A stretch of 64,000 nucleotides of DNA from a virus, in the IMG/VR virus record IMGVR_UViG_3300042691_027833, positions 1-64,000 of that record. One strand, given 5' to 3'. The notes below the pieces were generated by a model. That model made no database searches, was not told where the DNA came from, and saw only the letters and a list, made by a program, of their open reading frames with translations. The position numbers were made by a program, and so were the translations under genes. Below, piece after piece: positions 862 through 52,662 of this stretch; position 1 is the stretch's first letter, and every line of letters begins with the position of its first letter.

Positions 862-1421
862 TGAAAACCGAAACAAAAAGAAACAAATTTCCACCCTATT
901 TAACGTCAAACCATGATATATTTTCTGTTATAGCAGATAGAGTGAAGTCTCAAGAAAATGGAAGTACAGTTATAGTTCCTCATGTATGTAATAATGTTGA
1001 TGCTTTTGGTGCTGGTTTTGCTGGTCAAGTAGCCAGAAATTTCCCATCAGTAAAAGCAGATTATCATATGTTAGGTAAAACCTTTCTAAAAAATAATCTT
1101 GGATATACACAATTCTTGAAAGTATACGAAGAACCAAAGTATAGACATAAACTAATATTTGCAAATATGATTGCTCAGAATGGCATAGTGTCTGGAAACA
1201 ATCCAAGACCGTTGAATTATTTGGCTTTAACCAAATGTATGGTTTCCATCGCCAAGTATATAGCAGAACAAACGGATTTCATGCACAATAATGAGAATGT
1301 AGAGATACATGCTCCTAAATTCGGTAGTGGACTAGCAGGAGGAAATTGGAACTTTATATCTAATCTTATCGAAGACATATGGTCCCCATATAAGATATAT
1401 ATCTATACCTATCAGAGATAA
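861..1421 (+). CDS. macro-domain (ADP-ribose-binding) protein
   Basis: This 186-aa protein matches the macro-domain fold. Residues 37-54 carry the 'VIVPHVCNNVDAFGAGFAG' type first loop, with the Asn-Asn-Val that contacts ADP-ribose. Residues 151-162 carry the glycine-rich phosphate loop (APKFGSGLAGGN). The ALC1/Poa1p-like branch of this family binds or removes ADP-ribose, or dephosphorylates ADP-ribose-1''-phosphate. Possible phage roles are NAD-metabolite processing or countering host ADP-ribosylation or NAD-derived defence signals; this is inference. I chose ATG 861 over an upstream GTG because it overlaps the preceding stop (TGATG) and follows GAAAGGA. Confidence 0.85.
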   Translation: MKTETKRNKFPPYLTSNHDIFSVIADRVKSQENGSTVIVPHVCNNVDAFGAGFAGQVARNFPSVKADYHMLGKTFLKNNLGYTQFLKVYEEPKYRHKLIFANMIAQNGIVSGNNPRPLNYLALTKCMVSIAKYIAEQTDFMHNNENVEIHAPKFGSGLAGGNWNFISNLIEDIWSPYKIYIYTYQR

Positions 1422-1426
1422 TAATT

Positions 1427-1720
1427 ATGACATTTTTACATTGGTTATATTTACGTTTAAAGTTTAAGTATAAAGAAGAGGCAGATATCCTGCTTCAATA
1501 TGAAAAGATATTGACAGAAACCAGACTAATAAAGAAAAGCATTCCTATATCTTTCATAGATAAGGTCTGCAAAGAACACTTTATAGATTTTGATATGGAA
1601 AAAGTGCCAGATCTAAACATGGGATTTACCGAAGAGGAAAGATCTAAAATTAGAAATTTTGCTATAGATATCCTAAATAAGACACTATTGAGTGGTGAAG
1701 AAGCCTCTATCAAACAATGA
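1427..1720 (+). CDS. hypothetical helical protein
   Basis: This 97-aa, mostly helical and charged protein has no recognised domain. It lies between the macro-domain gene and a glycosyltransferase gene, with a four-base overlap into the latter. It is part of the left rightward operon. Confidence 0.6.
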   Translation: MTFLHWLYLRLKFKYKEEADILLQYEKILTETRLIKKSIPISFIDKVCKEHFIDFDMEKVPDLNMGFTEEERSKIRNFAIDILNKTLLSGEEASIKQ

Positions 1721-2409
1721 AAAAAGTTATATCATATAGTCTTTGGGGAAATAATACCAGATATACAATTGGTGCTATACATAATAGTATTTTGGCTAAA
1801 CATTATTATCCTGGATGGATCAGTAGATTCTATTGTAGTAATGATGTTCCAGAGAATATAATTAATCAATTATCTGCGTTCGACTCAAATGAAGTTATCA
1901 CAGTAGATGAGCCTGCTAATTGGACCGGTATGTTTTGGAGATTTTATGCCGCCGCCGATGCGGATATAATGATTAGTCGAGATGCTGACGCTAGACTGTC
2001 TAGTAGAGAAGCGTGTTCTGTTTCTAATTGGCTAGCAACAGAGAAATCTTTCCATATTATTAGAGATCATCCGTATCATGCTAGACCTATTATGGGTGGT
2101 ATGTGGGGTTGTCGTAATGGTATATTATCTAATATTAGGGATCTTATCAAACAATTTAATAAAAGCGATAGATATGAAATTGATCAAGATTTTTTAGGAC
2201 ATGTAGTATATCCTATGGTTGCTAATGATGCATGTGTACATGATCCATTTTATGAAAAACTAATGTTTCCACCAGAATGCGAAGTAAGAATACCGTGTTT
2301 TCATATTGGACAAGCATATGATCAAAACGGTATGGTTTTAGGAGTAGAAGAATACGGTCCCATGTCGTATAGTCAATTTGTACTAGAAAAAGATAATATA
2401 CAAATATGA
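1717..2409 (+). CDS. glycosyltransferase-like protein (GT-A type)
   Basis: This 230-aa protein looks like a GT-A sugar transferase. It has an N-terminal strand (KKVISYSLWG), and at residues 89-91 a DAD motif preceded by hydrophobic residues (DIMISRDADAR), the usual metal/nucleotide-sugar site. Downstream is a Gly-Gly-Met-Trp-Gly segment typical of acceptor loops. Similar proteins occur in polysaccharide clusters. The acceptor is unknown. It overlaps the next gene by four bases and opens a five-gene coupled glycan cassette. Confidence 0.65.
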   Translation: MKKVISYSLWGNNTRYTIGAIHNSILAKHYYPGWISRFYCSNDVPENIINQLSAFDSNEVITVDEPANWTGMFWRFYAAADADIMISRDADARLSSREACSVSNWLATEKSFHIIRDHPYHARPIMGGMWGCRNGILSNIRDLIKQFNKSDRYEIDQDFLGHVVYPMVANDACVHDPFYEKLMFPPECEVRIPCFHIGQAYDQNGMVLGVEEYGPMSYSQFVLEKDNIQI

Positions 2410-3266
2410 AAATTTATTTTAATACTAGTTTTCAAAACGAAGCTCCTTTATTCGAACATACTCTACCAATATGGTCTAAATATAATATAGATAAATTTAT
2501 ATTTTTTGATGATCATTCTACAGATAATAGTAGAGAAGTTATTTATCGTATACTGGGCAAAGATAGAGCGATTGTTCTTAATAAACCAGAATTAGAGTAT
2601 GATGATTCTCACTGCATTGGTCGTCAAATGATGTTAGACTTAAGCAGACAAGAAGGAGCCGATTTTGTTTTTTGTCTAGATGCAGACGAATTATTATCAA
2701 CAAATTTAAATACTAATATATACGATATTCTTAACTACATGATCAGTACCAATACTAATCTGTATATGTACTGGTTTAATCACATCAACTATTCATTTGA
2801 ACAAACTAGATGCGATGGCTATTATAAACAGTGCTATCATCCATTTATTATTCCTTGTAAGTTTAGTAGTAATTTTTTAACCACTTCAAAAGAACATCAT
2901 AGTTTTTGGAGAACTCCGAATATTCATCTAACTAATAGCCAAGCTACTCAGAATTTTGGTATCGTACATCTACAAATGATAAATACAAATTATTATGTTC
3001 ATAAACAATTATGGTATAAACATTATGAACACATAAAGTATGGATTTAGTGAAGAACAAATTAACAGCCGATATGACAACAATATTAACTTTTTAAATTT
3101 TGAATTTTTTCACACATCAAAAGATATTATAGAAAATATAACATTTGATTATGGCGTATTTGATAAGCTGATTGAACATAAAGGATACAGAGACTACATT
3201 AATAAATACTATAATCCTAAGCTAATAACATTCGGACAATCATTCTTAAAGCACAATCATGAATAA
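2406..3266 (+). CDS. glycosyltransferase, GT2/GT92-like
   Basis: This 286-aa GT-A protein begins with a strand and an 'E-x-P-x-F-E-H' segment, has 'FFDDHSTDNS' at about 33-42, and a DAD motif at residues 92-94 (FCLDADELLS). This order matches GT2/GT92-like enzymes, in which the DxD site binds metal and the UDP- or GDP-sugar. Donor and acceptor cannot be told. It overlaps both neighbours by a few bases, so co-translation is likely. Confidence 0.75.
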   Translation: MKIYFNTSFQNEAPLFEHTLPIWSKYNIDKFIFFDDHSTDNSREVIYRILGKDRAIVLNKPELEYDDSHCIGRQMMLDLSRQEGADFVFCLDADELLSTNLNTNIYDILNYMISTNTNLYMYWFNHINYSFEQTRCDGYYKQCYHPFIIPCKFSSNFLTTSKEHHSFWRTPNIHLTNSQATQNFGIVHLQMINTNYYVHKQLWYKHYEHIKYGFSEEQINSRYDNNINFLNFEFFHTSKDIIENITFDYGVFDKLIEHKGYRDYINKYYNPKLITFGQSFLKHNHE

Positions 3267-15012: not shown

Positions 15013-17256
15013 ATGTCTTTAGAAATATTATTCTATGCGAGAAGCGGGCTCCCTATACAAAATGGATCATCGATAGTCGTTAATTATGGCGGCAAAGACA
15101 AAGCATCATACATAAGTCAAAAAAGTGTTGCTTTAGATATTAATAGTGTTAATGCTAAATATACCGGTAGATTTGATAATGAAGTTCTGTATGAGTTTTT
15201 AGAAGCTGATGAGCAACCAGCTATCGGGAATACAAGTAGTTATAGTCCTCAATACTGGATTCCTTCTTTAGATGAATGGTATAAAGCAGCTTTTTATAAG
15301 GGAGACGGTGCTAATTCTGGCTATTGGATATACGCTACACAAAGTGATACAGCACCAATTCCAGTACAAGCATCATTAACTGGAGACGGACTAGCAAACG
15401 GATCTGGCAACTATGCCAATTATGCTGGTGGCGCTAGTTGGAATGTTCCTTCTGGTAGTGGTAATGTAACCACTGTAGGAACCAACGGAGGTCCTAGTTT
15501 TTATGGAACCTATGATCAGAATGGCAATGTTTGGGAATGGAATGACTCTATATCTGATAATTTAAGAGGTATCGCTGGAGGAGATTGGTTTTGTAACGAA
15601 TTTAGATTATCTACAGATGGCACAACAACACTAAATTCCGATGGAAGCGTAAGACAAAGTATTGTTACATATCACGGCAACCCAGCTTCTACAAGTTCAA
15701 AAATCGGTTTTAGAATCGCAACTTTCTCTAATCCTCTGAATCTGAATGATTTTGTTTTAGTGGATGATGCAAATAATTTAGCAGATGATAATAGTCTTGG
15801 TTCTATTTCGTATGATTATCAAATAAGCCGTTATGAAATTACAAATAATCAATATACTGAATTTTTAAATGCTGTAGGTATGTCTGATGCGTACGGTATA
15901 TATGTTGCAGAAATGGGACAGGATATTAGGGGTGGTATCTTAAGAAATGGAGTGAACGGATTCTATACTTATACAACCAAGCCCAATATGCATAGTAAAC
16001 CAGTTAATTTTATGACTTGGTTTAATGCTGCTAGATATTGTAATTGGCTACATAATGGAAAACCGCAAGGGTCTCAAACAACACTAACCACTGAGAACGG
16101 GGCTTATCCTTTATTCGGTGCAATAAGCGGTATTGTTTTAAAACAAATAGCCCCTCCTACTCCAACACCGACACAGACTCCTACTAGCACATTAACTCCT
16201 ACGCCTACTCAATCATTAACTCCTACCGTTACTAGTACAAATACACAAACCCCAACCAGAACACCTACTCCATCAGTAACTAGTACTATAGCTAGTACTC
16301 CAACCATAACTCCGACCACAACTAACACACCAACGCCAACAGTTACTAGCACAACAACTACCACTCCTGTACCTACTAGAACCTCAACACCAACACCTAG
16401 CACATCTTCCACGCAGATAGCGTTTACTACTAATAGTGCTAATTATGATAATTGTGCTGGTAATGTGAGTACTGTTGGCACCAACGGCATTAGTAGTTAT
16501 TATGGCGCATATGATATGAGTGGTAATGTGTGGGAATGGACCGACACAACTATTGCCTCAACTAATAAAGTTTTAAGAGGCGGTAATTTAGCATATAATG
16601 CATCCTATTTATCGTCTACTTTTCAAACATATGCAGATATTAATTCACGTAGTGGATTTACTGGCTTTAGAATAGGTTCCTACTCCTTGTCTTCAACATA
16701 TCCTAACATGGCTTTAGTATCAGATGTTAATAATATAGCAAACAACAATGGATTTGGCAGCGTTCCATATCTATATTATGTCGGTATATATGAGATTACG
16801 AATGATGAGTATGTTGAATTTTTAAATGCAGTAGCTCAAACTGATACATATTTTTTATATGTTAATAATATGTCGTTAGATACATTAGGAGGTATTAGTC
16901 GCAGTGGTTCATCTGGAAGCTACTTATACAGTGTCAAAACCAATAAGAATAGAAAACCTGTCAATTTTGTTAATTGGTTAAATTGTGCCAGATATTGTAA
17001 TTGGCTACACAACGGAAAGCCTACAGGAGTATCTTCTGTTGGATCTACTGAAAGTGGTGCTTACGACATGACCCAAACTAATATTATAAGACAAAATAAT
17101 GCAACATTTTTTATGTTGTCTGAAAATGAATGGTATAAAGCAGCTTATTATAAAGGAGGAGGTCTTAATGCTGGATACTGGCTCTACGCCACTCAAAGTG
17201 ATACGGCTCCGACCTGTGTACAATTAACACCTACGGGAGACGGTATTCCAGTATAA
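15013..17256 (+). CDS. adhesin-like protein with FGE/SUMF modules and a Thr/Pro-rich linker
   Basis: This 747-aa protein is built from formylglycine-generating-enzyme-like (C-type-lectin-fold) modules. Residues 80-240 are the C-terminal part of one module ('YWIPSLDEWYKAAFYKG', 'GNVWEWND', 'IGFRIA'). Residues 247-370 are the first half of a second ('YEITNNQYTEFLNAVG', 'ARYCNWLHNGKP'). Residues 380-467 are a Thr/Pro-rich tract inserted where the module's middle should be. Residues 473-556 finish it ('GNVWEWTD', 'FTGFRIG'). Residues 565-747 begin a third module and stop in mid-domain. FGE active-site Cys residues are not evident, so binding rather than catalysis is likely. A receptor-binding role is inferred. 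Confidence 0.75.
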   Translation: MSLEILFYARSGLPIQNGSSIVVNYGGKDKASYISQKSVALDINSVNAKYTGRFDNEVLYEFLEADEQPAIGNTSSYSPQYWIPSLDEWYKAAFYKGDGANSGYWIYATQSDTAPIPVQASLTGDGLANGSGNYANYAGGASWNVPSGSGNVTTVGTNGGPSFYGTYDQNGNVWEWNDSISDNLRGIAGGDWFCNEFRLSTDGTTTLNSDGSVRQSIVTYHGNPASTSSKIGFRIATFSNPLNLNDFVLVDDANNLADDNSLGSISYDYQISRYEITNNQYTEFLNAVGMSDAYGIYVAEMGQDIRGGILRNGVNGFYTYTTKPNMHSKPVNFMTWFNAARYCNWLHNGKPQGSQTTLTTENGAYPLFGAISGIVLKQIAPPTPTPTQTPTSTLTPTPTQSLTPTVTSTNTQTPTRTPTPSVTSTIASTPTITPTTTNTPTPTVTSTTTTTPVPTRTSTPTPSTSSTQIAFTTNSANYDNCAGNVSTVGTNGISSYYGAYDMSGNVWEWTDTTIASTNKVLRGGNLAYNASYLSSTFQTYADINSRSGFTGFRIGSYSLSSTYPNMALVSDVNNIANNNGFGSVPYLYYVGIYEITNDEYVEFLNAVAQTDTYFLYVNNMSLDTLGGISRSGSSGSYLYSVKTNKNRKPVNFVNWLNCARYCNWLHNGKPTGVSSVGSTESGAYDMTQTNIIRQNNATFFMLSENEWYKAAYYKGGGLNAGYWLYATQSDTAPTCVQLTPTGDGIPV
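16150..16413 (+). repeat. Thr/Pro-rich low-complexity coding repeat
   Basis: Degenerate ACx CCx codon repeats encode a tract of Thr, Pro, Ser and Gln (residues 380-467 of the 747-aa adhesin-like protein). The pattern TPTPTxT is the same type as the four blocks in the minus-strand gene at 50518-52662. On the opposite strand it makes a spurious Val/Gly-rich frame. Confidence 0.8.
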
Positions 17257-26639: not shown

Positions 26640-27377
26640 TTGAGAAAAAAACAATCAAAAAAGAAAAACAGATCCCCTATTGATATTACCAATAATCTTG
26701 AAATAGTTACACCATATAGTGGTTTTAGAAATAGGCTCAAACCTAGAACAGAAAACCAAAAAAACTATATTAGAACTATTGCTGAAAATGGTATTACATT
26801 TTGTCAGGGATTAGCTGGTAGTGGTAAAACACATATCGCTATAGGTATGGCTCTGGAATATCTTCTTGAAGAGAAAGTTAAAAAAATTATTATAACCAGA
26901 CCAGTGTTAGAGGCTGGCGAAAAAATTGGATATTTACCAGGAACAGCAGAAGAAAAATTACACCCTTATCTACTGCCTATTCTGGACGAAATTAACCACT
27001 TTATTTCCCCTGCTCTATACGCTAGTTTAAAACTTAACAATAAGATTGAAGTAGTTCCACTTGGCTTAATGAGAGGTCGCAATTTTCATGACAGTTTTAT
27101 TGTGGCAGATGAATGCCAGAATGCCTCATATGACCAACTTAAAATGTTGTTGACCAGAATTGGCAGAGAAAGTAAAATGGTTTTAACTGGTGATATAGGA
27201 CAATCAGATCTATCTAGACATTTGCGTGGAGGTTTCCTAAGCATGATACAATATCTAGATGGTATCGATAATATAGGATTTTCTGTTCTAGAATCTGTTG
27301 ATATAGTCAGAAATCCGATTATAGCAGCAATTATTTCTAGACTAGAATCTTATGAAAGACAAAACGAATCATCGTAG
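26640..27377 (+). CDS. phoH: PhoH-like P-loop ATPase
   Basis: This 245-aa protein has Walker A 'GLAGSGKTHIAIG' at about 57-69, 'ITRPVLEAGEKIGYLPG', Walker B 'FIVADECQNAS' and 'VLTGDIGQSD', the standard PhoH order. It begins at a TTG, with AAAGGG upstream; no good ATG lies before the Walker A, so the TTG start is accepted. PhoH proteins are common in phages and are RNA/DNA helicase-like, but their phage role is not settled. Confidence 0.85.
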   Translation: MRKKQSKKKNRSPIDITNNLEIVTPYSGFRNRLKPRTENQKNYIRTIAENGITFCQGLAGSGKTHIAIGMALEYLLEEKVKKIIITRPVLEAGEKIGYLPGTAEEKLHPYLLPILDEINHFISPALYASLKLNNKIEVVPLGLMRGRNFHDSFIVADECQNASYDQLKMLLTRIGRESKMVLTGDIGQSDLSRHLRGGFLSMIQYLDGIDNIGFSVLESVDIVRNPIIAAIISRLESYERQNESS

Positions 27378-30202: not shown

Positions 30203-31214
30203 TAGTATAAAAACAGAAGTCAAAAAAGATTTTGGCGATGATATAATTTTATCCGGTAATTCTATCGTTGATAGAAAAGTAGTAGTTATACCGGTTAGTC
30301 CGTCTCTAGATATGATATTGAGCGGTGGTGTGCCAGAGGGTAGTTTCGTAGTTCTAACCGGACAACCTAAATGTGGTAAAACTGTTACATCACTGGACTT
30401 TGCTGCTACGGCACAGAAGCCAGAATACCAAGGCAATCTTAAGGCACCTAGAGAAGTGTATTACCTAAATATTGAAGGTAGAATTAAAAAGCGTGACCTA
30501 GAAGGTATCAAGGGATTGGATCTAAATAGATTTCATGTAATAGGTAGTCAGCAGGGTAAAATATTACACGCAGAAGAATATCTACAAATAGCTGAAAAAA
30601 TTATTAATCAAGAACCCGGATGCGTACTCATCATAGACTCGTATTCTGCACTATGTACAGAAGCAGAAATTACAAGTGATATGGACAAGATGCAAAGAGC
30701 AGACGGGGCTAAGTTATTAGCTAAGTTTTGTCGTAAAGTTGCCAACGTTATTCCGGTCAATAAGAATATTGTTATTGGTATTACTCACTTAATGGGCAAT
30801 CCAACTGGTTATGGTGCAGAGTTTAAGGAAAAGAGTGGTCAGGCAATCGCCTATCAAACTGACATCAAGCTCCGAGCCAAAACTTTTAAACCGTGGACAA
30901 CTGGGGCAGATGGTACGCAAATAGGACAGGAAGTAGAGTGGCAAGTGGTGTGTTCTGCATTGGGACCTCCGGGCGCTACAACTACCAGTTATATTAGATA
31001 TGGCCAAGGTATAGATAAATATACAGAAATTATCAATATAGCATCAGATATAGGTATTATTAATAAGGGTGGTGCTTGGTACACGCTAACATCCGAAAAA
31101 GATAGTCCTAAATTCCAGGGAGTAGAAAAGGTAAGAGCGTATCTATTAGAGAATTCTGCTGCGTATGATAATCTGGTCAAATCTGTTAAAGATACTATGG
31201 GCATTAAAACATGA
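30195..31214 (+). CDS. uvsX: UvsX/RecA-like recombinase
   Basis: This 339-aa protein has Walker A 'GQPKCGKT' at 56-63, a Walker B 'CVLIIDSYSA' near residue 150, and 'IGITHLMGNPTGYG', the RecA L2-like region, followed by a C-terminal domain. It would form filaments on single-stranded DNA and drive strand exchange in replication and repair. It is followed by a nuclease-like gene and the helicase/primase pair. Confidence 0.85.
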   Translation: MSSSIKTEVKKDFGDDIILSGNSIVDRKVVVIPVSPSLDMILSGGVPEGSFVVLTGQPKCGKTVTSLDFAATAQKPEYQGNLKAPREVYYLNIEGRIKKRDLEGIKGLDLNRFHVIGSQQGKILHAEEYLQIAEKIINQEPGCVLIIDSYSALCTEAEITSDMDKMQRADGAKLLAKFCRKVANVIPVNKNIVIGITHLMGNPTGYGAEFKEKSGQAIAYQTDIKLRAKTFKPWTTGADGTQIGQEVEWQVVCSALGPPGATTTSYIRYGQGIDKYTEIINIASDIGIINKGGAWYTLTSEKDSPKFQGVEKVRAYLLENSAAYDNLVKSVKDTMGIKT

Positions 31215-31615
31215 TTATTAAAGACCTAGACAATAATAAAGTTTCTTGGTCTATTACTGGTTGTATATCTAATAGCAGATTGCAAAACAAGTCAGATTTA
31301 CATCTACTGGCCAGATCCTTGATACATGAAATATATCCAACCCTACAGGTATTAGAAGAAGTTCCAATTCCGGTTAGACGCAGCGAGACTTTATACCTAG
31401 ATTTTTATTTACCACTTATTAAAAAATGTATTGAGGTTCATGGTGAACAGCATTATAAGTTTGTACAATTTTATCATCAGAATGTAATGGGTTTCGTTAA
31501 GAGTAAAAAAAGAGACGAAGATAAGCAAAATTGGTGTGTCAATAATGGAATATCTTATATAGCACTACCTTTTGATACAACAACCGAGTGGAAGGAACTT
31601 ATTAGCAATGCATAA
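31211..31615 (+). CDS. PD-(D/E)XK / DUF559-like endonuclease
   Basis: This 134-aa protein has 'LYLDFYLPLIKKCIEVHGEQHY' (split here as an Asp, then Glu-x-His-Gly-Glu-x-His), resembling Vsr/DUF559-type nucleases, and 'RDEDKQNWCVNNGISYIALPF' at the C-terminus. The product at 48273 shares this core. It lies within the recombination operon, overlapping uvsX by four bases, and could act as a nickase or endonuclease. Confidence 0.6.
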   Translation: MIIKDLDNNKVSWSITGCISNSRLQNKSDLHLLARSLIHEIYPTLQVLEEVPIPVRRSETLYLDFYLPLIKKCIEVHGEQHYKFVQFYHQNVMGFVKSKKRDEDKQNWCVNNGISYIALPFDTTTEWKELISNA

Positions 31616-36839: not shown

Positions 36840-36854
36840 TAAGGAGACAAATAG

Positions 36855-38751
36855 ATGGGCGTGAATAGGAAATATATTCCTTTACACGTCCATTCTTAGG
36901 GAATCACACTATTCTCTATTGGATGGACTAAGTAAAACCGAACAGATTGCAAACAGATGCACCAAGATTGAAGCAAAGTCTTGTGCGTTAACCGATCATG
37001 GTAATATTGCGGGTGCGGTCAAGTTCTATAGTGACATGACCAAGAAAGGCATTAAGCCTATATTGGGTTGTGAATTATATATCTGTGATCAAAATCCGTC
37101 TATACAAGAACCGGCTAATCGCAAACTCTCGCACTTTATAGTACTTGCAAAAAACTATAAGGGATGGAAGAATTTAATACGCATAGTTTCTGAATCTAAT
37201 AAGCCAGAATACTTTTATCACAAGCCAAGACTCGATATAGAAACTCTAAGGTCTATTGTTGATACTGGCAATATGATTGCTGTAGTAGGACATCTAGGTT
37301 CTACGTTAGCTGACATTATTACTGAGAATAATGCAATTAAAAAAGATTATATGAACCTAGGTACAAACTTTATCCATAATATTAAAGATATTTTTGGCAA
37401 GGAAAATGTATTTCTAGAAGCCCAACTCATGGACCAAGACAACATAGCATTACAAGCTAGTCTTACTGGTGCTATTAGAGATTTGGGCAAATCTACCAAT
37501 ACAAAGGTTATATGCACTCCTGACGCTCATTATGCAGAAAAAGAAGATGCTATGGATCAGCGTATTCTACTATGCAATAATCTCAAAACCACTTTGAGTA
37601 AAATTAATAGCAAAATACAAAACCAAGAATCGATTGGTATGGATTGTTTCTTTTTGTCTGATAATTACCACATACCTTCCCAGGAAGAAATATCTGCATT
37701 ACACAATGAAACAGAAATAGAGAACACTAATATAGTTGCAGAAATGTGCGAAGAATACGACATCTTAGATAAGCCACATTTGCCATCTTTTGATTGTCCC
37801 AAAGGATATAATCCTGATGAATACCTAAGACAATTGTGTAGGAACGGATGGAAAGAAAAAATACAAAATAGTATTAGTACAGAAGAGCAGCAGAGATATG
37901 TAGACAGAATTAAGTCTGAACTAGACGTTCTACAGGGTGCTGGTTTATCTAGCTACTTTTTAATAGTGCAAGATATTGTACAGTATGTAAGAAATGAGGG
38001 GTGGTTACCCGGTCCCGGTAGAGGTAGTGCTGCTGGTTGTCTCGTATCTTATCTTATTGGAATTACCAGTATAGATCCGCTTAAATATAATCTATTGTTT
38101 GAACGATTCTATAATGCTGGAAGAAATACTAAAGATAGAATAAGTATGCCAGATATTGATATAGACGTACCGATTAATAAGCGAGAACAAGTAATCGACT
38201 ATATTAAGAATAAGTACGGCAGAGATAAGGTGTCTCAAATGATCACATTCAATACTATGAAAGGTAGAGGTGCCTTAAAAGACGTACTTAGAGCATATGA
38301 TAATATTAGTTTCGAAGAAATGAATCGTATTACAAAACACATTCCCGACGAAGCAAAAATTGCCGACGAACTCCAAGAAATGAAAGATGATACTGGCGAA
38401 TCATCTATAATTCGCTGGGCCTTAGAAAACAATGTTGACAAACTCAAGGAGTGGTGCTATATTAATGAAGACGGAGAGTTGGCCGGTCCTCTAGCCAAAA
38501 GGTTTGAACAAGCCATTCGTCTAGAAGGAACTAAGTCTAATCAATCGAAACATGCGGCTGGTGTACTAATCAGTAGTCAAGGATTATCAGATATGTGTCC
38601 TATGGTTTATGACACAAAAAATAAACAAACTATTGCTGGTATGGAAATGCAAGACCTAGAAGCGATAGGTGGGATTAAGTTTGATATCCTTGGCGTGGCC
38701 ATGTTAGATAAAATTATGACGATATCTGACTTTCTTAAAAATGGAGAATAA
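36855..38751 (+). CDS. dnaE: DNA polymerase III alpha-type polymerase, N-terminal half (interrupted reading frame)
   Basis: AAGGAG (36841-36846) and ATG 36855 start a frame that gives 14 codons ending 'PLHVHS' and then TAG (36897-36899). The rest reads from TTG 36919 in the +1 frame: 'LDGLSKT', PHP motifs 'LTDHGN', 'GCELYI', 'PDAHY', then palm motifs 'GPGRGSAAG', 'PDIDIDV' and 'KFDILG'. The last two hold all three expected catalytic Asp residues. The fingers and C-terminal parts are missing and lie in the gene at 39630. The polymerase is thus split, and the 5' frame needs recoding, a repair of sequence, or an unproven internal start. Confidence 0.8.
36892..36906 (+). other. candidate translational bypass/recoding site in dnaE
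   Basis: ATTCT (36892-36896) and GGAAT (36900-36904) can form a hairpin whose loop is the TAG stop. The Ser codon TCT (36894-36896) stands directly before TAG, and a Ser codon TCA lies at 36904-36906. Hopping from TCT to TCA omits 10 nucleotides and yields 'HVHS' joined to 'HYSLLDGLSKT', the conserved DnaE motif. A +1 shift instead would add Arg-Glu-Ser. Confidence 0.5.
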
Positions 38752-38753
38752 TC

Positions 38754-38936
38754 ATGGTAGATAAAAAATTTAATGAACTTGGTGTTAATGATAGATTTTT
38801 TGTCAATGGAATGGAATATGTTAAGATAGAAACAGTAAGAGTAAGTTGCTGCAAGTCTATCAATGCCCAAGAAGTAAATAATTCGTCAGTTAAGTCATTT
38901 TTTACAGAGGATACAACGGTACAAGTAAATGCCTAA
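38754..38936 (+). CDS. small hypothetical protein between polymerase halves
   Basis: This 60-aa protein starts 'MVDKKFNELGVNDRFFVNGMEYVKI', with adjacent Cys residues in 'RVSCCKS'. It resembles small beta-rich phage proteins and may be distantly related to the 381-635 product. It starts three bases after the dnaE N-half stop and overlaps the exonuclease by eight bases. Confidence 0.6.
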   Translation: MVDKKFNELGVNDRFFVNGMEYVKIETVRVSCCKSINAQEVNNSSVKSFFTEDTTVQVNA

Positions 38937-39624
38937 TTTTCAAAAACTTTGTGTGTTTGATATGGAAACCGATGGGTCCGATCCGGATTCATGCAGTCCA
39001 GTTCAAATAGCGGCGGTTATTGTCGATCCATTAAGACTAGAAATTATACCAGACTCAGAATTTAATGTTAGTATCAAGCCCGAGAAACTTGAGGCCGACT
39101 CTACATATACATATTCTGATTCTGATATCCTAGAATTTCATTCTAAGGTTCGTGGCTGTTCACAAGATGACATATTAAAAATGTGGCATTCTTATACTCC
39201 ACAGCAACAGTCTTGGAAGTTATTCTTGTCTTATCTCGAAAAGTATCATATTAGATCAGACAAGAGATCTTGTTTCACCGCTCCTATTGCGGCTGGATAC
39301 AATATCAATAGGTTTGATCTTCGTATTATCGAAAGACTAAGTAAGAAATACAACAATCTAAATAAAGAAGGTAGATCTTCATTATTTTATCCAAGAGATG
39401 TTGTGGATGTTATGAATGTTATTTTTTATTGGTTTGAATCCAATAACGAACTCAAGAACTATACTTTGGATAATTTAAGAGATTATTTAGGCATATCTAA
39501 GGAAGGCGCTCACGACGCTCTAAAGGACGTTAGGGATACTGCCGATATTCTGATTAGGTTCTTAAGACTACACAGGAACTTGGGTAAGAAGGTTAAATTT
39601 AGAGGATCATTCGCCACCAACTAA
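38929..39624 (+). CDS. DnaQ-like DEDDh 3'-5' exonuclease
   Basis: This 231-aa protein has ExoI Asp11-x-Glu13 ('FDMETDG'), ExoII Asp130 ('NINRFDLR') and ExoIII His195/Asp200 ('HDALKDVRD'). That is the DEDDh proofreading family of the PolIII epsilon subunit. It is encoded between the two halves of DnaE, which strongly suggests it acts as the polymerase's proofreader. In this phage it is a separate polypeptide. Confidence 0.85.
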   Translation: MPNFQKLCVFDMETDGSDPDSCSPVQIAAVIVDPLRLEIIPDSEFNVSIKPEKLEADSTYTYSDSDILEFHSKVRGCSQDDILKMWHSYTPQQQSWKLFLSYLEKYHIRSDKRSCFTAPIAAGYNINRFDLRIIERLSKKYNNLNKEGRSSLFYPRDVVDVMNVIFYWFESNNELKNYTLDNLRDYLGISKEGAHDALKDVRDTADILIRFLRLHRNLGKKVKFRGSFATN

Positions 39625-39629
39625 TTTGT

Positions 39630-41252
39630 ATGTCAAGTTATTTTACATTTGATTGCGGTTGCAAGTTCCCTATATCGGAACAATCTGCCACTCCAAAAAT
39701 TATTTTCAATCCAGATATTACTAATATTAATCTAGCGTGTTCTAGAACATGGGAGTTAATATCAGAAGGTAATACTAAAGGCTGTTTCCAGTTAGAATCA
39801 AGACTAGGACAGTCTATGGCTAAAAAACTAAAGCCTGAAAATATAGAACAGTTATCGGCTCTGATTTCTATTCTTAGGCCCGGATGTTTGGAAGCTTATA
39901 GAGATGGTAAAAGCGTCTCTAATCATTACATAGATAGAAAAAACGGACAAGAATCCATAGATTACTTTCATCCTGCACTAGAGCCTATTCTTAAAGAAAC
40001 TTATGGAGAGATGGTTTATCAAGAACAGGCGATGGGTATCGCTAAAGGTATTGCCGGATTTAATCTTCAAGACGCTGACGAACTTAGAAAAGCTATTGGT
40101 AAAAAGCAGGCCGATAAGATGGCCAAGGTTAAAAAGCAATTTATCGACGGTTGTGCAAAACTTAGCATAGTTACCACAGACGAAGCAGAACAGATATTCG
40201 GATGGATTGAAAAGAGTCAAAGATATTTGTTTAACGCTAGTCATGCCGTTTCCTATGCTATTAATGCGTATCTCTCAGCATATGCAAAAGCACATTTTCC
40301 TAGGATATTTTTTGCCTCATATTTAAGATATGCAAAAGACAAGATAGATCCACAACAAGAAATTAAAGAGCTAGTTAGAAATGCTAATAGTATGGGTATC
40401 AACATAAGAATACCTGATCTACGCAATCTTAATGAATTCTTTTACATCAAAGAAAAAGAGATATATTTTGGTCTAACTGATATCAAAGCGGTTGGGGCTT
40501 CTGTCTATAAGAAACTATTAGATATCTGTGATGGTAAGGATTTGTATAATTTATCGTGGTATGATATACTTATAGACATTTTATTAAATATTAACTCTGC
40601 CGCAGCCAAATCATTAATATCGTGTGGTGCTGTAGATTTTAGCAAAAAGAGCCGCACAGAAATGTTGTTTGAGTTAGATATTCTGTCAGCACTAACAGCT
40701 AAGGAATTAGAAAAACTTAATGAACTTAGATTAACAAAGAACTATAAAAACTTAGAACAAATGCTATTAGATGGTGTTGCTACTTTTAAGTTAACAACTA
40801 AGAGAAAAGAAGCAATCAATAACCTAATACATACCATGCAGCACCCCCCATTTTCTTTAACAGATAAAATAGAATGGATTTCTGATTCTGAAAACGGACT
40901 ACTTGGAGTTGCGTTGTCTTGTTCTAAACTTGATACATACGACACGACCATGACGAACACAGACTGCAAAACCTTCAAAACATCCGCATATAATAAAAAT
41001 GTTATTATTGCTGGTGAAATTTCTTCTATAAATTTTGTTAAAACAAAAAGAGGAAAAAACCCAGGTCAAGAAATGGCATTTATTAGTATCGAAGATTCTG
41101 TGGGCATACTAGATTCGTTAATAATGTTTCCAGAGCAACTAGCAGAATATAAGCATCATTTGTTTGAAGGAAATATTCTTGTGTTTTTTGGCGATAAAAC
41201 GAAAACAGGAGACGGTCTGGTTGTATCAAAGTGTTTTGAGCCTATGACTTGA
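39630..41252 (+). CDS. dnaE: DNA polymerase III alpha-type polymerase, C-terminal half
   Basis: This 540-aa protein begins with a short novel segment ('YFTFDCGCKFPI') and resumes DnaE at 'TWELISEGNTKGCFQLES' at about 40-57. It continues through 'LRPGCLEAY', 'YGEMVYQEQ', the fingers element 'RKAIGKKQADKM', 'FNASHAVSYAINAYLSAYAKAHFP', and an OB-fold-like C-terminus ('VIIAGEISS ... LDSLIMFP'). No intein motifs are visible at either side of the split. It must assemble with the N-terminal half to make an active enzyme. Confidence 0.82.
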   Translation: MSSYFTFDCGCKFPISEQSATPKIIFNPDITNINLACSRTWELISEGNTKGCFQLESRLGQSMAKKLKPENIEQLSALISILRPGCLEAYRDGKSVSNHYIDRKNGQESIDYFHPALEPILKETYGEMVYQEQAMGIAKGIAGFNLQDADELRKAIGKKQADKMAKVKKQFIDGCAKLSIVTTDEAEQIFGWIEKSQRYLFNASHAVSYAINAYLSAYAKAHFPRIFFASYLRYAKDKIDPQQEIKELVRNANSMGINIRIPDLRNLNEFFYIKEKEIYFGLTDIKAVGASVYKKLLDICDGKDLYNLSWYDILIDILLNINSAAAKSLISCGAVDFSKKSRTEMLFELDILSALTAKELEKLNELRLTKNYKNLEQMLLDGVATFKLTTKRKEAINNLIHTMQHPPFSLTDKIEWISDSENGLLGVALSCSKLDTYDTTMTNTDCKTFKTSAYNKNVIIAGEISSINFVKTKRGKNPGQEMAFISIEDSVGILDSLIMFPEQLAEYKHHLFEGNILVFFGDKTKTGDGLVVSKCFEPMT

Positions 41253-47827: not shown

Positions 47828-48286
47828 ATGCAACATAATTTAGGATTTATTATTAAGCAGCTGCGTAACGATATATTTAGTCATGATATCATAAACTTGG
47901 TGTCTGACTTTATAAAAAATAGACCATTAAGCAATATCTCTATTTTTACTGGTGGTTGTGATGCTATAGATACAAAAATGGTTCCGGTACTCCACATTAG
48001 CCATGCTTCCCACTTTCCAGCACATATTGTAGCATTAGATTTAGATTCACTAATTTTTAGTGCTACATTTGTACAAAAACAGGGTTTGACTTATTATGCA
48101 CAAAGTATACCTTGGGCCAACAAGATCTATGATTATTCTTATCTGAAGCAGTTGTTTAGTCCCAAAGTGGTTAATAATATTCTGAGTGCGAATACAGATA
48201 TTGCTAATATGTATACTAAGTTTTTTAATTACGAACCAAGAATATATGAAAAATTAACTTATGGTGGTCTATATGAAACAATATAA
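47828..48286 (+). CDS. hypothetical protein
   Basis: Starting at ATG 47828, this 152-aa protein has 'FTGGCDAIDTKMVPVLHISHASHFPAHIVALDLDSL', an alpha/beta core. A longer frame back to 47720 would overlap the preceding gene without a ribosome site. No family is recognised. It is the last gene of the second glycan run. Confidence 0.55.
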   Translation: MQHNLGFIIKQLRNDIFSHDIINLVSDFIKNRPLSNISIFTGGCDAIDTKMVPVLHISHASHFPAHIVALDLDSLIFSATFVQKQGLTYYAQSIPWANKIYDYSYLKQLFSPKVVNNILSANTDIANMYTKFFNYEPRIYEKLTYGGLYETI

Positions 48287-49067
48287 CTCATTGTCTGATA
48301 GCGAAAAGAAAAATTTATTGAATGATCTGTATGTCAAACAGAATATGAGTTTTGCTGATATAGCCAGCCAACAGGGTACCTATGCTAATAAAATTTTAAG
48401 AGATGCTAAAAAACTAGGCATAGCAATCAGAGACAAATCCGCTGCTCAAAAGAATGCTTTAAAAACTGGTAAACATAAACATCCCACTCTTGGCAAAGAA
48501 AGAAAACAAACAACAAAAGATAAAATAGGGCTAGGAGTTATGAAGTCTTGGGAGACTTTATCTGATGACGAACTCAATGAACGTAAACAAAAGGCTAAAA
48601 CAGCATGGGAAGAATTGGATATTGTAACTAAGGAAAACATTTTACAAAAGGCGAATCATGCAGTCAGAGTCGCAAGTAAACAAGGATCTAAACTAGAAAA
48701 TTTCTTACTAGAGTGTTTGCTTTCGGATGGTTTCAAGGTGGACTTTCATAAAGAACAAATTTTGACAAATACCAAGTTGCAGATTGACCTGTTTTTACCT
48801 AGTATAAATACAGCAATCGAAGTTGATGGCCCATCACACTTTGAGCCTGTGTGGGGTCAAGATTGTCTAAATAAAAACATATCTTATGATCAGAAAAAGC
48901 AAGGATTAATTTTGGGCAAAGGATTAGTGCTAATCAGGATCAAGCAAACTAAGGACTATTCCAAAACTAGAGCTAAGATTATATATTCTAAACTACTAGA
49001 ACAAGTTAATAATATCAAACAAAAATTTCCACCGTCAGACCAAAGGATAATTACTATAGAGGATTAA
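48273..49067 (+). CDS. HTH-containing Vsr/DUF559-like endonuclease
   Basis: Starting at ATG 48273, this 264-aa protein has an N-terminal helix-turn-helix ('KNLLNDLYVKQNMSFADIASQQG'), a basic linker (about 55-90), and a C-terminal nuclease core 'QIDLFLPSINTAIEVDGPSHF' resembling Vsr/DUF559. The linker with 'GKHKHPTLGKERK' recalls modular DNA-binding pieces of homing endonucleases. It shares the core type with the product at 31211. It may be a free-standing homing-type enzyme. Confidence 0.65.
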   Translation: MKQYNSLSDSEKKNLLNDLYVKQNMSFADIASQQGTYANKILRDAKKLGIAIRDKSAAQKNALKTGKHKHPTLGKERKQTTKDKIGLGVMKSWETLSDDELNERKQKAKTAWEELDIVTKENILQKANHAVRVASKQGSKLENFLLECLLSDGFKVDFHKEQILTNTKLQIDLFLPSINTAIEVDGPSHFEPVWGQDCLNKNISYDQKKQGLILGKGLVLIRIKQTKDYSKTRAKIIYSKLLEQVNNIKQKFPPSDQRIITIED

Positions 49068-50517: not shown

Positions 50518-52662
50518 TTACTCGCATGATTTAGTGTAGTCTATTGATATTTCTATTCTCGATTCACAGCCATATTTGGGCTTAAGTGGACACAACGGAT
50601 TTGGTTGGTCACATGGATCCGGTGGTACGTCCGCTGCTTGTGGTGGACACTCACCAGAACAATACACCTCTATAATATCACCAGGAAAAACATATTCATC
50701 ACAATTGTCTAAAGGTGGAGAAACCGATGGCGTAATAGTTGGTGTTACAGAACTTGTAGGCGTTGGCCCAAGAGGAGTAGCTGTTGCGGTCATAGAAGGA
50801 GAGGGTGGAGGAGTACCTGCGGGCGTAGAGCTTGGAGTAATGCTAGGGGTAGGTCCAGGGGTTGATGTTGGTGTTTTTGTTATTGTACTAGTTGGTGTGG
50901 ATGTTTTAGTAACTGTTGGTGTTCGAGTAGGAGATGCTGCGGGCGTAGATGTTGGCTCACTAGTTGGCGTAGGTGTTGGGGTCATAGAAGAAGTAGGAAC
51001 TGGAGTATCTTTAAATTGTCTTAAGTACATATAATATTGAAAACTATTAAACGAAATTCCTATTAGTTCAACAATTTCCCAATCCACAAATCCTTGTAAT
51101 AATAACCATTCTATAGCATACTTTTGAATGTTATTTAATAAAACTGCTGGTTGACTAGACGGACTTAATGATAAACTAGGTGTCTGTGTTGGAGTTTTGG
51201 TCTGTGTAGATGTGGGTGTGACAGTATTAGTTGGCGTTGATGTTACGGTAGATGTTGGAGTGGGTGTACTAGTAGCGGTTGCAGAAGGGGTTGGTGTCAT
51301 ACCAGGAGTGGGTGTGACAGTACTAGTAGGTGTTGGTGTTTGTGTGCGTGTTACTGTCGGAGTCTGAGATGGAGTCGAAGTGGGTGTGCGACTAGGAGCT
51401 GGAGGAATAGCAGATGTGACAGTCTTAGCTTCACCATTCTTTCTAAGAATTCTGGTTACAATACTACCTTTGCCAATATTTATTTTGTCAAATTTAATTT
51501 TACCAGCTATTTTAGGTCTAAGTCTTATAATATTCATATTCGATAGTTCATTAGCTGGTACAATATATGGATCACAAATAAATCCTTTTCCTCTTCTTCT
51601 AAATTGTGGCCTAGCGCCGTTATTGGATGGTGTTGCGTCAGGAGTGCCTGTGGGTGTTGGTGTGTTAGTTGCTGACGGTGTTGTGGTTTGGGTTGCTGTT
51701 GGTGTTGATGTGGCAGCAGGAGTGGCCGTAGGCTCAGGAGTTGGAGTGTTACTAGTAGTAGGCGCTGGTGTGTTAGTTTGTGTAGGGGTGGCCGTTTGAG
51801 AGATGCTGGGTGTGGGTGTTTTGGTGGCTGTAGGCGTCATAGTTCGTGTTGGTGTGACGCTTCTGGTTGGTGTGGGTGTTCTAGTACTGGTAGGCGTAGG
51901 AGTAGGTGATGGCCTAATAGGAATACACGGATAATCATTTTGAATAATTTGAGTTACCTGTTGCGTACTAATACCCAGTAAACTAGCAATTCTCGAAATA
52001 TCTTCATTAATAGAATGCAAATAACAAACAGCCATTACTAATATAGAACAAGAAGAGCCTTTGCTGGGAGAAACAGAAGGAGTATTTGTAATAGTTGGTG
52101 TCGTAGTTGGGGTAGCAGTACCAGTTGGTGTTACTGTTGAGGTTGGTGTAGAAGTAGGAGTCTCTGTTGGAGTAGTTGTTGCGGTTGGAGTGATACTACT
52201 GGTTGGTGTTACAGTACTCGTGGCTGTAGGACTAGCATTAGGGGTTGGTGTTTGTGTACTAGTTGGCGTAGGAGTGTTGTCTGGGGTAGCAGACACAGTG
52301 GGTGTCTGAGTTGGCGAAGACTCGGGACGCACGGCACTAAGAGCATAGTCATATACCAGCTCCACCTCCTCATCCTGTATTAAATCAAAAGAGTTATAGA
52401 TAATAATAACTCCATCTTTTTCTACATAATAAATAAATGTACAGCCGCCACTCTGTCCGGTTGATTTAGCCTTAATCTTTATCTTATTAGACCCAACAAT
52501 ACTATACTCAGATACATTAATTGGTTCTGTATTTAATTCAGCTACAAGATTAATAGTCCTAATAAATCTATCATTAATATATAGATCTATTTGATCTCCG
52601 TCTACCAGAGACGGATCAAAAAAATATAACTTAGAATATTGATCTATAGTTTCAAATGACAT
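50518..52662 (-). CDS. Thr/Pro-rich structural or adhesin-like protein
   Basis: This 714-aa protein is a string of small folded pieces joined by Thr/Pro-rich tracts. Residues 1-114 are a beta-rich N-domain. Tracts span 115-200, 251-346, 422-503 and 553-650. Between them are a small helical piece at 201-250 ('LVMAVCYLH ... LLGIST'), a basic beta piece at 347-421, and another helical piece at 507-552 ('YAIEWLLLQG ... LIGIS'). The C-terminus (651-714) is Cys-rich. It resembles a mucin-like stalk and is probably a virion surface protein. It is encoded directly after the 2291-aa protein. Confidence 0.7.
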   Translation of the reverse strand: MSFETIDQYSKLYFFDPSLVDGDQIDLYINDRFIRTINLVAELNTEPINVSEYSIVGSNKIKIKAKSTGQSGGCTFIYYVEKDGVIIIYNSFDLIQDEEVELVYDYALSAVRPESSPTQTPTVSATPDNTPTPTSTQTPTPNASPTATSTVTPTSSITPTATTTPTETPTSTPTSTVTPTGTATPTTTPTITNTPSVSPSKGSSCSILVMAVCYLHSINEDISRIASLLGISTQQVTQIIQNDYPCIPIRPSPTPTPTSTRTPTPTRSVTPTRTMTPTATKTPTPSISQTATPTQTNTPAPTTSNTPTPEPTATPAATSTPTATQTTTPSATNTPTPTGTPDATPSNNGARPQFRRRGKGFICDPYIVPANELSNMNIIRLRPKIAGKIKFDKINIGKGSIVTRILRKNGEAKTVTSAIPPAPSRTPTSTPSQTPTVTRTQTPTPTSTVTPTPGMTPTPSATATSTPTPTSTVTSTPTNTVTPTSTQTKTPTQTPSLSLSPSSQPAVLLNNIQKYAIEWLLLQGFVDWEIVELIGISFNSFQYYMYLRQFKDTPVPTSSMTPTPTPTSEPTSTPAASPTRTPTVTKTSTPTSTITKTPTSTPGPTPSITPSSTPAGTPPPSPSMTATATPLGPTPTSSVTPTITPSVSPPLDNCDEYVFPGDIIEVYCSGECPPQAADVPPDPCDQPNPLCPLKPKYGCESRIEISIDYTKSCE
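50713..51006 (-). repeat. Thr/Pro-rich coding repeat, block 4
   Basis: Residues 553-650 of the 714-aa protein, degenerate T-P-T/S-P repeats. The opposite strand gives an artefactual Val/Gly-rich frame. Confidence 0.8.
51154..51399 (-). repeat. Thr/Pro-rich coding repeat, block 3
   Basis: Residues 422-503 of the 714-aa protein, the same T-P repeat type, ending in a Ser-rich stretch before the second helical module. Confidence 0.8.
51625..51912 (-). repeat. Thr/Pro-rich coding repeat, block 2
   Basis: Residues 251-346 of the 714-aa protein, between the first helical module and the basic middle piece. Confidence 0.8.
52063..52320 (-). repeat. Thr/Pro-rich coding repeat, block 1
   Basis: Residues 115-200 of the 714-aa protein, following the N-terminal beta-rich domain. 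Confidence 0.8.

Follow-up and report, generated by a model that had tools for sequence, protein, structure and literature searches.

Proven natural bypassing in phages amounts to essentially one case, gene 60 of bacteriophage T4, which was described as apparently unique (PMC3014915). In gene 60 the ribosome comes to a halt at GGA-UAG, where a small stem-loop occupies the A site, undergoes pseudo-translocation and slides, and a 5' stem-loop zips behind the ribosome and aids the bypass (PMC11194080, PMC5009743). In T4, the topoisomerase gene was split by mobA, and protection from the nuclease is a possible role of the gap (PMC5009743, PMC2988022). Bypassing of the mitochondrial byp elements was described as independent of the mRNA context, and natural in-frame stop-hops were considered unknown in a review (PMC5009743). 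In mycobacteriophage Corndog, an HNH gene adjoins a suspected bypass site (PMC4351075).

The locus presented here lies at the start of dnaE in a stretch of 64,000 nucleotides of viral DNA (the window), which is part of a 67,490-base IMG/VR virus record. It very probably represents a short programmed translational bypassing element, the bypass itself being inferred, together with the relic of a mobile endonuclease-plus-bypass cassette. As for T4 gene 60 and mobA, the gene concerned is a phage replication gene, a stop follows the take-off codon, a hairpin with the stop region is predicted in the A site, a 5' stem-loop is present, an HNH homing-endonuclease gene is found upstream (in some of the relatives described below), and most relatives are gapless (PMC3014915, PMC11194080, PMC2988022). 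The order of the parts is also the same as in gene 60, i.e. 5' stem-loop, take-off codon and stop inside the A-site hairpin (PMC11194080, PMC5009743). The features of the locus are collected in Table 1.

Table 1. Features of the split dnaE start, given in positions of the window.
Feature	Position	Strand	Basis
Shine-Dalgarno AAGGAG of dnaE	36841..36846	+	read from sequence
dnaE coding segment 1, ATG 36855, 14 codons MGVNRKYIPLHVHS	36855..36896	+	sequence
5' stem-loop	36855..36893	+	predicted fold, pair counts, arm-swap test
Outer stem of the 5' stem-loop, start AUG pairing with CAU	36855-36863 with 36885-36893	+	fold
Inner stem of the 5' stem-loop	36867-36871 with 36877-36881	+	fold
Take-off codon TCT (Ser), sole linker joining both hairpins	36894..36896	+	haplotype comparison
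Coding gap TAGGGAATCA, 10 nt, opening with stop TAG 36897-36899	36897..36906	+	sequence, relatives
3' stem-loop, UAGGGAAU (36897-36904) with AUUCUCUA (36911-36918), loop 36905-36910	36897..36918	+	fold, covariation
Landing triplet TCA, top of the 5' strand of the 3' stem-loop	36904..36906	+	haplotype comparison
dnaE coding segment 2, N-terminal half: remaining PHP domain and polymerase core	36907..38751	+	Pfam PHP, DNA_pol3_alpha

A sequence-only reading had noticed the Shine-Dalgarno motif, the ATG, a 14-codon frame running into TAG and an excess of exactly 10 nt (36897-36906), all of which were confirmed by direct inspection of the sequence. The DnaE frame picks up again at CAC 36907, reading HYSLLDGLSKT. 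The closest named phage DnaE proteins share only ~34% identity with the DnaE of the window. The latter is encoded by two ORFs within 36855-41252: the first, ending at 38751, supplies the N-half with PHP and polymerase core, and the second (39630-41252) the C-half with finger, HHH and OB. Between them lie an ORF of 60 codons and a gene for an RNase_T-type exonuclease (38929-39624). This two-ORF arrangement is common to most relatives. Elsewhere in the window, the proteins encoded at 50518-52662 and 15013-17256 display long Thr-Pro-Ser repeats (TPTPTST...), the second one additionally with repeated NVWEWND...FRI-type segments.

Relatives were retrieved with the sequence of the DnaE body, blind to the start region. 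The resulting 160 loci comprised 42 gapped (26 distinct upstream haplotypes) and 118 contiguous ones (70 distinct). Further loci were added by scanning for the pattern Y-x-P-L-H-V-H-S followed by TRR, giving a total of 226 viral loci, from which 107 are gapped (44 distinct upstream sequences, hereafter the carriers) and 119 contiguous (72 distinct). As some loci are re-fetches of one contig, the distinct haplotypes give the more reliable figure. The 226 loci split cleanly into both forms without any intermediate. A scan of genome contigs delivered a single MAG contig (L227, Alphaproteobacteria MAG, Lanier), which is too little for a host call. The gap site was identical in all carriers, immediately 3' of the Ser codon in H-V-H-S; one protein is encoded in two segments, with a PHP motif of DnaE that is interrupted at this point in 44 haplotypes and uninterrupted in 72. 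Gaps of 6, 7, 8, 9, 10, 11 and 12 nt were found in 1, 1, 3, 8, 16, 14 and 1 haplotypes, respectively, which corresponds to 10, 17 and 17 haplotypes for the modulo-3 classes 0, 1 and 2. The gap measures 8 nt in L142 and 12 nt in L110.

An in-frame stop came first in the gap of all 44 haplotypes (26/26 in the sample blind to the start). It was TAA or TAG in all 26 blind-sampled haplotypes and TGA in two of the pattern set, while TGG was never found at the gap start, although the scan pattern permitted it. Without a stop, ribosomes could translate straight across the ten in-frame gaps, yet all of these retain one; the stop therefore looks required and not merely tolerated. Because all three frame classes occur, no single frameshift or readthrough restores all carriers. 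As far as sequence evidence alone can tell, the resumption point is set by position in any frame, over gaps of 6-12 nt, and by no fixed shift. The take-off codon was TCY in 43 of the 44 haplotypes and TCG in one. In the 26 distinct haplotypes sampled blind to the start, the residues YxPLHVHS were kept with synonymous codon variation. The codons on the 5' (YxPLHVHS) and 3' side ([HM][YF]SLLD) of the gap showed almost only synonymous or contiguous-like variation.

The window's own sequence was also found in L001, and the haplotypes of L142 and L202 were each represented by 12 fetched loci (re-fetches of the same contigs included). The sequence-only reading had conceded that relatives with an intact frame would speak against it if the break turned out to be a rare artefact. 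Such relatives do exist, yet the gapped form is a recurrent, structured and selected state rather than an artefact.

Around the gap (window 36885-36921), the carriers are frozen at the nucleotide level (Val always GTC, Ser TCN, GAT in 43/44), whereas the contiguous relatives vary freely over this region. The frozen tract, from the spacer to TTGGATGG, appears as if it were co-converted or recognised. In L076 and L077, a gapless dnaE is nested among gapped relatives. It displays a carrier-like ATGGGCG start and its 5' hairpin is degraded, as though the gap had been lost precisely.

The element of the window (36855-36921, 67 nt) was predicted to fold with -24.3 kcal/mol, compared to -9.0 for shuffled sequences (z = -6.8, 0/200), and is therefore not due to chance. 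The median fold z was -5.0 for the carriers versus +0.2 for the contiguous relatives, with no overlap, and the 5' stem-loop was absent from the contiguous relatives in this fold comparison. Across all haplotypes, 98.4% of the cells of the outer 5' stem pair. As signs of covariation, one pair is A-U in place of G-C in 12 sequences, and the usual pairing of ATG with CAT is replaced by that of GTG with CAC where the start codon is GTG. Alternative arms were recognised by eye in carriers (UAACGA/UCGUUA, UAGAGAA/UUCUCUA, AAGUGA/UCACUU and GAGUG/CACUC). In an arm-swap test, arms were exchanged between haplotypes and the pairing was rescored over 20,000 swaps. The exchange abolished the pairing of the 3' hairpin (z = 7.8, 0/20,000); for the inner and outer 5' stems, values of z = 4.9 (0/20,000) and z = 2.5 (341/20,000) were obtained. 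These covariation probabilities are strong but approximate, since related sequences are not independent.

The 3' stem-loop starts at the stop codon itself, so that the stop is paired. It was predicted and covaries in nearly all carriers, being absent or weak in L207 and L094. A hairpin formed by ATTCT and GGAAT with TAG as its loop had been drawn from the window alone; this fold is possible in the lineage of the window and is not conserved in the alignment of relatives, where the conserved pairing instead includes the stop codon (36897-36904 with 36911-36918). That reading had overlooked the larger 5' hairpin (36855-36893), the fact that gaps lengthen with the stem, and the HNH gene associated with the element. 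By contrast, its proposal of a miniature bypass resembling T4 gene 60, with take-off codon, stop, hairpin and Ser-like landing, is supported by 44 natural versions with covarying structures. No Rfam match was obtained for the element, and no further copies were found in the window or in the relatives, the other strong matches being only minus-strand echoes of the inverted repeat. Among 50 larger records, the element occurred once, at dnaE, in 25/25 carriers and in 0/25 contiguous ones.

In 39 of the 41 folded elements, the landing triplet begins at the 3' end of the 5' strand of the 3' hairpin, with an offset to the stem end of -1 in 31 and 0 in 8 elements. Due to this fixed position on the stem, longer stems accompany longer gaps, and it may be inferred from the sequences that the stretch skipped by the ribosome corresponds to one hairpin strand. 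The landing triplets were TCT, TCA, ACT, GCT, TCC, TCG and GCC, the middle C being invariant. An exact match with the take-off codon was found in only 11 of 42 elements, which counts against bypassing; in the non-identical triplets, no more than one of the three pairs with the take-off Ser tRNA is lost. The two carriers without 3' hairpin combine the shortest gaps with exact codon matches (L207, TCT-TAA-TCT; L094, TCG-TAAA-TCG).

Translational bypassing is by far the best account of the conserved coding gap, and we consider it highly likely on comparative evidence without measurement; the joined HVHS-HYSLLDG product is inferred, in the absence of protein, RNA or ribosome data. In the proposed mechanism, ribosomes would initiate at 36855 and read 14 codons, the last one being UCU, which places UAG in the A site. 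By inference from T4 gene 60, the stop-containing 3' hairpin would disfavour decoding by a release factor. The peptidyl-tRNA-Ser would then release UCU, and the mRNA would move by the 10-nt gap, past the 5' strand of the hairpin, while the 5' hairpin is inferred to re-form behind the ribosome and to drive or lock the forward move. On a geometric reading, the 3' arm of the 5' hairpin would still be inside the ribosome with UCU in the P site; it would start to emerge after the 10-nt move and could then pair. With a minimum of two base pairs out of three, the tRNA would re-pair to the NCN triplet that tops the hairpin, after which decoding would restart at CAC, yielding HVHS-HYSLLDG with YIPLHVHSHYSLLDGLSK as the expected junction peptide. 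In PHP domains, the H-x-H motif provides metal ligands.

Other readings of the gap were considered. If 6-12 nt were cut from the mRNA prior to translation, by a nuclease and a ligase or by an unknown mini-intron mechanism, the frame would be restored whatever the gap length, and the conserved flanking structure would be compatible with a processing site. Such RNA-level removal is nevertheless improbable, as it leaves without reason both the in-frame stop at the 5' edge of every carrier (26/26 in the blind sample) and the triplet compatible with the Ser tRNA at the 3' edge; to our knowledge, no bacterial machinery excises 6-12 nt from an mRNA. Very little credence can also be given to a reading without any joining, in which the 14 codons would be a regulatory leader peptide, the hairpins would control translation, and DnaE would start past the gap (e.g. 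at TTG 36919) without the HVHS strand. The start codon is indeed held in the 5' hairpin, TTG precedes LDG in 40/44 carriers, and an ATG directly follows the gap in some of them. However, TTG is also commonest at that place in the contiguous relatives (46/72), four carriers have no TTG, and no SD-like sequence lies ahead of 36919. YxPLHVHS before and [HM][YF]S after the gap moreover retain protein-like codon variation, and the product starting at TTG lacks the H-x-H strand and reaches a Pfam PHP score of 105.7 bits versus 128.8 for the bypass product.

The sequence-only reading had kept as an alternative a +1 ribosomal frameshift at UCU-UAG, which would add Arg-Glu-Ser and give the peptides YIPLHVHSR and ESHYSLLDGLSK. 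The arithmetic fits the 10-nt gap of the window, and, at 120.6 bits, little of the PHP score is lost, but one shift is insufficient for distinct carriers in all three frame classes (17/17/10). Gaps of 6-12 nt would need three kinds of shift, in-frame gaps require none and still keep the stop, and the +1 frame of L015 hits a second stop after one codon, which makes this alternative scarcely tenable. Readthrough of the stop was ruled out by the frame classes, and a recoded stop was rejected as the gaps carry TAA, TAG or TGA depending on the carrier and the other ORFs of the window end normally. Although only metagenome contigs without raw reads were at hand, assembly error is very unlikely, because identical haplotypes were recovered from several independent contigs, and a single site shows 44 distinct versions. 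These versions include compensatory changes, and the downstream frames are intact across deep divergence, so that a sequencing or assembly error or a decayed gene can practically be dismissed. In the neighbouring genes, the only similar frame break was an isolated 1-nt break in dnaB of L076, near the contig end.

Directly upstream of dnaE, an HNH-like gene of ~240 codons was identified in some carriers, with its stop overlapping the 5' hairpin. As in the mobA/gene 60 cassette of T4, an endonuclease gene thus lies beside the gap: it is intact in 8 of the 44 carrier haplotypes (L049, L085, L090, L091, L097, L111, L177 and L188) versus 0 of 72 contiguous ones (p = 3e-4), and truncated in other carriers (L113, L123 and copies). 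The gene matches the PHROG endonuclease and HNH endonuclease families and also phage genes annotated as HNH endonuclease, while no significant similarity of its product to solved structures was found. The median distance from the stop of the upstream gene to the conserved LDG codons was 41 nt in contiguous relatives versus 102 in carriers. The AAGGAG motif lies within the spacer that separates dnaE from the stop of the upstream gene in carriers, and falls inside the 3' end of the HNH gene where that gene is present. Between L188 and L177, the HNH gene is 87% identical, compared to 74% for DnaE and 67% for the upstream nuclease, as expected for lateral spread. Intactness in only 8 of 44 carrier haplotypes and absence from the record of the window speak against the cassette; the window looks like a carrier whose endonuclease was lost.

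DnaE trees showed 20 carrier-state changes with FastTree (14 forced by well-supported branches) and 17 with IQ-TREE (11 forced), and a single carrier clade was rejected (p = 3e-8). Lateral spread could account for the scattering of the carriers, as could repeated precise loss. By analogy with T4, it is inferred that the HNH protein would home into contiguous dnaE and be blocked by the gap, its activity and target being untested. The gap would then mark a dnaE resistant to the endonuclease, and bypassing would keep the polymerase functional.

Other endonuclease-like ORFs were observed in these genomes. The window ORFs 31211-31615 and 48261-49067 match PHROG homing or HNH endonuclease families, and both were rejected as the mobility gene: the Vsr-like ORF 48261-49067 is a core gene in 49/50 relatives, gapped or not, an unusual behaviour for a homing endonuclease, and the EDxHD-like ORF at 31211 is present with both gap states. 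For the HNH ORF at 27352, the contiguous loci were too short to compare. Related HNH-type ORFs are located between the dnaE halves or inside the N-half in L043/L104 (+1851..2546), L146 (+1169..2098) and L227 (+1247..2098, relative to the LDG codon). It seems that dnaE is a repeated target of homing endonucleases, and its split into halves may derive from an HNH-type insertion. A second family of small HNH-type ORFs was found near the upstream kinase and nuclease genes (L026, L034, L084, L108 and L039), between about -1900 and -1065 relative to the LDG codons of dnaE, in gapped and contiguous phages alike.

Several properties distinguish the dnaE element from T4 gene 60. The host gene is dnaE instead of a topoisomerase gene, the gap measures 6-12 nt instead of 50 (about five times shorter), the take-off codon encodes Ser and not Gly, landing triplets are near-matching and lie inside the hairpin, and many alleles exist in many phages. 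With 14 codons before the take-off site in the window, no KKYK-type nascent signal (25-30 residues from the P site) is present; a gene 60-type nascent-peptide signal has no room, because only 13-14 codons precede take-off. That the element works like gene 60 is inferred by analogy, and homology has not been shown. Mitochondrial byp elements (Magnusiomyces, Saprochaete) share with dnaE short skipped inserts across related genomes and a tolerance of 2/3 landing pairing (PMC5009743). Unlike them, the dnaE element resides in a bacterial-type phage gene, at one fixed site and with HNH linkage, and combines, in nearly all carriers, a stop codon with hairpins on both sides. The synthetic stop-hops of E. 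coli use matched codons around a stop, and TCT-TAA-TCT of L207 has exactly that arrangement (PMC5009743); the dnaE alleles differ in being natural, mostly longer and hairpin-supported. Bypassing is also suspected in phage genes such as the terminase of Streptomyces phage Hau3 and the tape-measure gene of mycobacteriophage Corndog (PMC5009743), but genes and layouts differ, and these are unproven candidates without comparative structure evidence. We lean, with reservation, towards a distinct class of bypassing, in which the ribosome would skip the 5' strand of the A-site hairpin and re-pair with a near-matching triplet at the hairpin top, helped by the refolding 5' hairpin and without a distant nascent-peptide signal. 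Such a class would include a natural stop-hop (L207) and would spread among many phages as a homing cassette, by way of a conserved polymerase motif.

No report of bypassing in dnaE was found in a literature search covering few subscription papers. For gapped dnaE genes, wrongly placed starts are to be expected from automatic gene calling. The 44 natural alleles, which differ in gap length, stop, landing codon and hairpins, form together with close gapless alleles a comparative set on the requirements of bypassing. Natural ribosome jumping is extremely rare, and the case of dnaE spans a large group of uncultured phages. The findings also suggest that the association of homing endonucleases with bypass gaps is a recurring one and no oddity of T4.
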